Assembly: GCF_964204645.1 (NCBI RefSeq)
Contig: NC_134027.1
Coordinates: 11,830,485-11,894,484, forward strand
Direction: 5' to 3'
Length of the DNA stretch: 64,000 nt
Source of the DNA: Tubulanus polymorphus
Lineage: Eukaryota; Nemertea; Palaeonemertea; Tubulaniformes; Tubulanidae
The first letter of the stretch is position 1; the number at the start of each line of letters is the position of its first letter. Below are positions 37,701 through 41,544 of the stretch, piece by piece. The notes below the pieces were generated by a model. That model was given only the letters and a program-made list of their open reading frames with translations. It did no database searches and was not told the origin of the DNA. The translations under genes were made by a program, and so were the position numbers.

Positions 37701-40700
37701 CTAAAAATATGCCTATTATTTATTATATTAATATGTGTTTTCTTTCTTACACCATGCCAACTCGAGACTTCTAGATCTTCCACTCCATGAATTTTCATAC
37801 GCAATCTTTGAAAAGTATCATTAGGGTTTAAATACTCTTTGTAGTGTTATATTATCACTAATCTACGTCCAATGACTTTGAGTAGGTCTTTAGTGACAGT
37901 TATTGCCAAGAGAGCCTTAGTAGTATAGTTATAGAGGGGTTCTGGCACAGCTAACTTTTGGGCTAAGTAGGCTAATATGAGCTATTGAGCTAACTTTTGA
38001 GCTAAATTGGGCTATTGTCGGCTAGCTTTTGAGCTTATGAGTTCTAACATTGAGCTAATGCATGCTAATACCGAGCTAATGCGATTACACCATACTTATA
38101 TATGTATATGGTTTACATTGTTTTATCAATTCAGATTTCGGTAAAATAACTGAAATCCCTTTCACATACAATAATAACATTACTGAAAATTACTCAATAC
38201 ACATTCCAAAAATAGTATTAACAACCCAGCGTTGGAATACATCAGCACAGCATTAACACACTAGCCCAATAGTAAGCTCGCATTTGCATATATTAGCTGA
38301 GTAGTTAGCATAAATTAGCTCGGCATTAGCTCAATGATAGCTCATCATTAGCTTAGTATTAGCATGCATTAGCTCAATTTTAGCACGCATTAGCTCAAAA
38401 GTTAGCCGACATTAGCCCAATTTAGCTCAAAAGTTAGCTCATTAGTTAGCTCACATTAGCCCACTTGGCCCAAAAGTTAGCTGTGCCCTCTATAACTATA
38501 CTACTAATGTTGATTTAAGAGAGCCTTGATTGATATTGCATATAGGTTTTTTAGCACAATTTTTTTTACATGAATGAATCTTCAATTGATAGTTGATTGA
38601 AACAACTTGCTGCACTTCAGTTCCTTCAGAGGGCCAATATCGGTAGGCTGGCTTGAGAGTTAGCACTCACTCCAGTGTTAGAGGATAACATCCATCTGTT
38701 TGTCAGAGTTAACCAGTGGATAGTTGACACAGTGCCAATTAAAAGTTTATTGTTACTATGCTATTTATCCGCTGGTTAACCATCTTTAGAGCAACTGGCC
38801 CAAGGCGGAATGAGAATAATTTCATAAGTTTGCATCATCTTTTTATACAAAATAATGAGTACTAAGCATCAGACAGGTTCGATCTGAGTGTCAGCGGCTT
38901 AGAATCTGGGGGGAAGGCACCGGATGTCTTGAATCAGAAGGGCTCATTTGTATAAATACACTTGTTCATCAGCTTTGCTCTGTTTACGCGTTCTTGTACT
39001 TGCCCGAGTCCAAACAAATGCCAGGTGAACACCGAGAAAGCAGTACCTTTGTTGTGAGGTTCGGTAATAAGCGTTGTTGTTTGCGCGTTGTTATTTCTAA
39101 ACATCGCTGAGCGGCGCCATGTGCGAGGCAGAAGCCACGCAAGATATGATCCTTCGGAACCTCAACAATTTTCCCTCCAATTACAAGATGAATTCGCCTG
39201 ATTCTTCATTCATTTCGACTCAGGTTTTCCTCTATTTGTTATTTCTTGTTTGTTGTGAAGGCTGAAACGGGGATTACGCGGAACCATGTTATATTGAAGT
39301 TCGCACCTTCGGGGCCCGTGTAATTCTATCTTTGCTCCTCGCGGTCGGGAGAGGACAGCATCAGATATTGGAAACATGAGTTGATGAGAAAATATTTTTG
39401 TTATTGTTTATTCCTGAATAAATGCCTTTTTCACATGAGAAATCTACTCCCTAAAGATTTCTAACTGAAAAATCGTTTTTTGTGTTTCTGTTCTACGGCA
39501 AAAAAGACAAGAAACACTGATAATTTCTCTTGTTTGGACAAGAGGAAACAATTTGTTTCATGTTTTTGGAAGTCCGTAACTGTCCGGCTGAAGCGTAGCG
39601 CATACTTGTGGCTTGTTTCATGATGCGTGTAGGTCCAAAACACGAAACACAGTCTACAACGCAAGCACGCAGTCACGACACAAGCCCGCAAAGCATTCCT
39701 GTTTCATGTTGAAGTCTTGCTTCATGCGCTGGGCTTTAATCGTTGAAGGCCTTGATATAATAGCAACGACTATTTGATAACGGTAAATTTTTTTTTCGTT
39801 CTGCAGGAATTCCTTCTCGGTGATAGCACGAAGGCGCAAACGAATTTGAAGTGGAAACCAAAATATGATTTCAGCGTAAGTAATAAATGTAGCTGCGCCA
39901 AAATTTCTGTTGATAGTTTTACATGAAGCCATACAGAATCCTATTGGATCGATGATATAGCTATTATGATTTCGTGCCATTCGATTTTAGAAACTCGTCG
40001 AGGAAATGGTTGAGTATGATCTCATACTAATGAAGAAACAGCCGAATGCTTAAAATGTATTACACACAAAAAACATGATTACCATTCTCTGAGACTATTC
40101 TTAAACGGTTGTGGATTTTGACCTTAAACAGTTAACTAATTGGATAGTTAGACTAATTTTAACTCGGAGTTGAATCTTAACTCGACAGCACCTAGTTCCA
40201 CGGATGTTGGTGAAGTTTGACTTGAGAGTTAAGGATTTGAAATGTACTGCTTTTGACTCAAAATGTCAAGCTCAATTCTGTGGAATGAAGTCCCTGAAAT
40301 GTGGGTCTTAGTCCCGGAGCTGAATTTATAGACGTGTATTAAATCAGCCCTGGATCAGGATTTTTAGACATCAGTTTAGTTCCGTAGTTCTTGGTAAAAT
40401 TGAAACTAATTTTAAATGTTTTAACCCGAGAGTCCGATTTAACCGAGTTAATCGAAGTTAAAATCAGTCCATTTCGTATTACCTTAACTCCAAAGTCAAA
40501 TCATAACTCACAGGGGCGGATCCAGGATGCAGAGGGTGTGCAAGCCCCCCACCTTAATGTCGAGTTGCCATAAGTTTTTAAGTTGATAATTGACATGGTG
40601 ACAATGGAAAGTGTATCCACCCGGTGGGTAAAATTTTATGCTGATCTTCGAGCAACTGGTCCCAGAAATGCAGTCTATGAATCCATCTGTTGTGACAGTG

Positions 40701-41544: not shown

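Follow-up and report, generated by a model that had tools for sequence, protein, structure and literature searches.

The gene for GDP-mannose 4,6-dehydratase (gmds) in the 64-kb stretch of DNA analysed here (the window) carries two homologous 63-nt coding segments beyond its tenth exon, which we call exons 11a and 11b. We consider it probable, at roughly two chances in three, that an old tandem duplication has provided the gene with two alternative, mutually exclusive last exons encoding two different C-terminal helices. GMDS performs the first step in the conversion of GDP-mannose to GDP-fucose, the donor for O-fucose on Notch and for fucosylated glycans. Should both last exons be in use, a single gene would produce two enzyme forms that differ only in their last 20 residues. 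This would be a clean natural experiment on the role of the C-terminal helix, and splicing could then control fucosylation through a switch at its committed step.

Structure of the gmds gene

We searched a genome of 268 Mb in 77 contigs with the protein family TIGR01472. Eight exon-sized matches fell in the window and correspond to gmds exons 2-9; the rest of the genome returned one weak match, on another contig (E 0.01). Exons 1 and 10 were located by sequence and the splice sites were read around the family matches, giving a consistent frame. The gene comprises 11 coding exons, of which the ten upstream of the terminal pair span 22753-22833 to 39807-39875:

22753..22833, plus strand: coding exon 1; start codon picked by homology and frame, without a match in the family search
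23244..23288, plus strand: coding exon 2; family search and splice-site reading
25144..25231, plus strand: coding exon 3; family search and splice-site reading
26627..26736, plus strand: coding exon 4; family search and splice-site reading
27254..27446, plus strand: coding exon 5; family search; TSE motif and start of YxxxK
27843..27947, plus strand: coding exon 6; family search; end of YxxxK
29378..29505, plus strand: coding exon 7; family search and splice-site reading
30397..30515, plus strand: coding exon 8; family search and splice-site reading
33770..33866, plus strand: coding exon 9; family search and splice-site reading
39807..39875, plus strand: coding exon 10; donor GTAAGT common to both last exons
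39876..39990, plus strand: intron before 11a; 115 nt, the shortest of gmds; low-scoring acceptor ...TTCGATTTTAG
39991..40053, plus strand: terminal coding exon 11a; 63 nt, 20 codons, TAA
41482..41544, plus strand: terminal coding exon 11b; 63 nt, 20 codons, TAA; acceptor strength normal for gmds

Joining exons 1-10 to either 11a or 11b yields a GDP-mannose 4,6-dehydratase of 365 amino acids. The 11a model scores 616.8 bits against TIGR01472 and the 11b model 617.2 bits (equivalog cut-off 415), with a profile that reaches only residues 357-358 of the 365. The 11a model also matches PF16363, and residues 12-365 of the 11b model align with human GMDS chains. The catalytic fingerprint [ST]SE...YxxxK, as it appears in a table of PMC8987622, is present in the joined models as TSE and YGAAK. 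The gene is a GDP-mannose 4,6-dehydratase (GMDS/Gmd).

Just upstream of gmds, on the opposite strand, lie two open frames with SAM domains (20901-22445, minus strand; PF00536 and PF07647). At 5230-10724 (minus strand), a 1602-residue open frame and a second frame resemble, by eye, a BEL/Pao-type retroelement polyprotein. The words AGCTAA and TTAGCT are abundant in both orientations at 37917-38510, and the ends of this segment form nearly matching inverted copies (TAGTAGTATAGTTATAGAG... and the complement), in the manner of an inverted-repeat element; both features were noted by eye. At 55400-55800 a long AT-rich simple repeat translates as (YI)n in several of its frames. A long open frame at 58201-59604 (minus strand), some 17 kb downstream of gmds, contains a forkhead domain (PF00250, 1.5e-40), which by eye looks FoxL1-like. 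Human FOXC1 and GMDS are also placed in one region (PMC1634998), so an old Fox-GMDS linkage may persist.

Two homologous terminal exons

The original prediction held that exon 10 is followed by two segments of 63 nt, each preceded by AG, in phase 0 and consisting of 20 codons and a TAA stop. Re-reading the sequence confirmed this arrangement, as well as the claimed identity of 12 of the 20 residues between the two; at the DNA level, 40 of the 63 bases are identical. Both segments had been described as paralogous to the C-terminus of human GMDS, and each indeed matches 11 of the 20 human residues. In a six-frame, ungapped 20-residue scan of the 64-kb window, the next-best match reached only 8/20 for 11b and 7/20 for 11a, which makes chance a poor explanation of their likeness. 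Aligned with each other as DNA, the two exons score 38, a value that none of 200 shuffles attained, and on these two results chance resemblance was rejected. Read-through from exon 10 meets a stop codon in the intron, before 11a. The proposed tandem duplication of the last exon is well supported, and both copies are coding-competent.

When the genome was searched with exon 10 joined to 11a, only exon 10 and 11a were returned; exon 10 joined to 11b likewise returned only exon 10 and 11b. Neither search lists the other copy, so a third copy equally diverged would escape them. Within that reach, no third last exon was found by the genome searches, nor by the window scan, where no third 20-residue match exceeded 8/20.

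The terminal tail compared with the Gmd family

To place the two tails in their family, we compared them with the best 80 bacterial and archaeal Gmd proteins from a scan that listed at least 589 candidate stretches, all but one of the 589 coding for relatives. Among these best 80, Met6 is present in all and Asp10 in 79, and both residues are kept in 11a and 11b. Leu2 (72/80) and Val3 (68/80) are likewise kept in both copies. The copies differ at eight sites (1, 4, 8, 9, 11, 12, 17 and 19). Seven of the eight are variable among the best 80 proteins; site 11 is mostly Leu, Val, Met or Ile there, and site 19 lies past the end of 78 of them.

A profile built over sites 1-16 of the best 80 proteins scores 11a at 30.4 bits, the human tail at 34.7 bits and 11b at 40.4 bits. 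None of 5000 shuffles of 11a reached the 11a score, the best attaining 7.7. Exon 11a carries Tyr9 and Ile12 at positions where the family has mostly small or charged residues; a helical wheel places residue 12 on its polar side. Tyr at site 9 occurs in 2 and Ile at site 12 in none of the best 80 prokaryotic proteins, and this rarity marks 11a as an unusual form. Exon 11b looks canonical in sequence. Pro18 and Ala20 of the copies are common to human GMDS, which has Asn19 as in 11a and Ala9 as in 11b. Such sharing would follow from descent of both copies from a GMDS-like ancestor, with later changes falling at different sites in each.

Splice and 3' end signals

The acceptors of the two exons were scored with two models, both trained on nine sites, all of gmds. 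Under the pooled model, 11a scores -4.3 and 11b 4.6, against 3.8-10.1 (leave-one-out) for the nine upstream gmds acceptors; 36% of the window's 3235 AGs score as well as 11a and 1.3% as well as 11b. The position-specific model gives -6.1 for 11a and 4.6 for 11b (upstream gmds acceptors, 3.5-12.9), with 42% of the window's AGs as good as 11a and 2.9% as good as 11b. The pyrimidine count of the 11a acceptor, 11 of 16, is ordinary for the gene, whose other acceptors have 9-14. The 115 nt before 11a compare with 396 to 5940 nt for the earlier gmds introns and with 1606 nt from exon 10 to 11b. The low score of the 11a acceptor is a point that the original prediction does not mention. A near weak acceptor followed by a far normal one fits 11b as the default with a controlled 11a, and also fits a decayed 11a.

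The latter possibility is the main rival reading: 11a would be a lately retired exon, long constrained after the duplication, whose acceptor has decayed such that only 11b is spliced today. Its low-scoring acceptor and very short intron speak for this, as do the greater divergence of 11a from the family profile (30.4 versus 40.4 bits) and the lack of an AATAAA between 11a and 11b. Against it, the frame, the stop and the near-invariant residues of 11a are all intact, and the loss would have to be too recent for coding damage to have set in. A weak proximal acceptor can also mark a regulated alternative exon, and the pyrimidine count is ordinary. We regard retirement of 11a as unlikely.

Polyadenylation signals were sought past both stops. 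AATAAA is absent from 40054-43500, where about three would be expected (chance of none 0.05), and the first lies at 43651; it is thus missing within 2 kb past either exon's stop, including the interval between 11a and 11b. Variant hexamers do occur past the stops, for example ATTAAA at 40338 and 41987. An AATAAA at 39882, right behind the six-base donor of exon 10, might produce an early 3' end upstream of both last exons. The segment 39860-40070 showed no unusual RNA fold (z -0.20 versus shuffles), and no Rfam family matched in 36000-44000 at the gathering threshold.

A donor-like site, AAT|GTAAGT at 41185, scores 9.2, compared with 6.6 for the exon 10 donor. It raises the possibility that 11a is mainly regulatory: the transcript would be respliced downstream of 11a (with the GTAAGT at 41185 as one possible donor and 11b as its partner), creating a junction in the 3' UTR, and nonsense-mediated decay would lower the mRNA. 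Schistosoma gmd, gmer and gft offer a parallel in the splice variants described in PMC3718619, many of them with premature stops or frameshifts. A regulatory exon, however, would have no need of a conserved 20-residue helix and a natural stop, and a chance GTAAGT is fairly frequent in 1.4 kb. We judge this reading improbable.

Age of the duplication and constraint on both copies

The flanks of the two exons show no detectable likeness. For the 115 nt upstream, the alignment score was reached by 108 of 200 shuffles, and for the 200 nt downstream by 194 of 200. Because the flanks lack homology, the similarity of the exons has been maintained. Only 8 of 20 codons agree at the third position, and together with the unrelated flanks this dates the duplication, as read from the sequence, as old.

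The proposed comparison of dN/dS between the copies gave an omega of about 0.03 under a two-sequence codon model, with the time at its upper bound and hence saturated. Across three transition ratios, omega 1 loses 8.1-8.8 units of 2dlnL and omega 0.5, approximately the least expected if one copy were free, loses 4.2-4.4; the test against 0.5 is a modest one, its power limited by 20 codons per exon. We also simulated the joint pattern of at least 12/20 identical residues, an intact frame and at most 8/20 identical third positions. With one copy neutral and the other at omega 0.1, the probability of this pattern was at most 0.0027 (8 branch lengths and 2 ancestors, 4000 runs each); with both copies at omega 0.1, it rose to as much as 0.32 (6 branch lengths, 2000 runs each). 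The codon model, the simulation and the family-profile comparison agree with a pattern of purifying selection in both copies, and both 11a and 11b look to be under coding constraint.

These results bear directly on the notion that, ever since the duplication, one of the copies has drifted as a neutral relic. Its appeal is the general fact that exon duplicates mostly decay, but the omega test, the simulated probabilities and the concentration of 11a/11b differences at family-variable sites led us to reject it as very improbable. Least credible is that 11b (or 11a) is left over from another gmds gene lying in tandem, an idea suggested only by its downstream position and rejected within the limits of best-candidate searches: the family search found the exons of this gene and the one weak match on another contig, exon 10 lies at a single place among the best candidates of the genome searches, and no further gmds exons were found downstream of 41544. 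These best-candidate family and exon searches, which could miss badly worn exons, found no second gmds gene in the genome.

A proposed model for two enzyme C-termini

Alternative, mutually exclusive last exons offer the best explanation of the combined evidence. In the proposed mechanism, the single donor of exon 10 would be joined either to the near, low-scoring acceptor of 11a, 115 nt away, or to the far, normal acceptor of 11b, 1606 nt away. Each last exon would end the protein by its own stop and, if used, would have its own 3' end. Two mRNAs would result, encoding the same 345-residue catalytic body and different 20-residue C-terminal helices that keep the conserved helix face alike. An mRNA that contained both 11a and 11b would encode nothing extra, because translation would halt at the 11a stop.

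The original prediction that these are alternative, interchangeable last exons is partly supported: the two are interchangeable in frame and length, and both show the pattern of purifying selection. We consider splicing of both exons likely, with 11a probably being minor or regulated. By analogy with known relatives the tail is presumably helical, and its two versions may tune assembly, stability or feedback control. Gmd is described in PMC3584063 as forming active tetramers in some bacteria and dimers in E. coli and human. It is at most a fair guess that the tail alters assembly or feedback, and the effect on oligomer packing or regulation raised in the original prediction is likewise conjectural. 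More tentatively, in this single-copy gmds the splicing choice of C-terminal helix might set the place and timing of GDP-fucose production or its end-product inhibition.

Comparison with known systems

The class of event is already known, and as far as the searches reached, GMDS is a new target for it. The original prediction knew of no such report for GMDS. Our searches on GMDS splicing and exon duplication, together with a general phrase, likewise returned no duplicated GMDS last exons, which is weak evidence given that subscription papers lie mostly outside their coverage. One paper that they did return, PMC6071210, deals with the human GMDS-AS1 locus.

An enzyme-specific comparison is Schistosoma mansoni gmd, the same gene in an invertebrate, for which splice variants have been reported (PMC3718619). 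That paper, in its available part, attributes the GMD variants to exon skipping, intron retention and alternative donors and does not describe duplicated last exons. The same source assigns several GMD forms to Arabidopsis and Caenorhabditis, where the duplication produced whole-gene paralogs; here, in contrast, a single gene carries a duplicated exon (PMC3718619).

Tandem duplicated terminal exons with a mutually exclusive choice are described for Drosophila pip, and PGRP-LC makes a comparable choice among 3' variable regions, with competing RNA structures reported (PMC9013439). Both resemble gmds in having terminal exon units, and the mutually exclusive choice shown in those genes is what we propose for gmds. 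They differ from it in that the pip units are untranslated and those of PGRP-LC are variable 3' regions, whereas the last exons of gmds are coding. The competing structures of PGRP-LC also contrast with the ordinary folding of 39860-40070 in gmds.

The exons 9 of tropomyosin are duplicates of one another. As proposed for gmds, the alternative last coding exons 9a/9c/9d of TPM1 and TPM4 swap a C-terminal helix. Tropomyosin is a coiled-coil actin-binding protein with demonstrated isoform functions, whereas the gmds product is a soluble dehydratase for which two forms are predicted. In tropomyosin, the alternative C-terminal exons change the contacts between molecules (PMC8152229).
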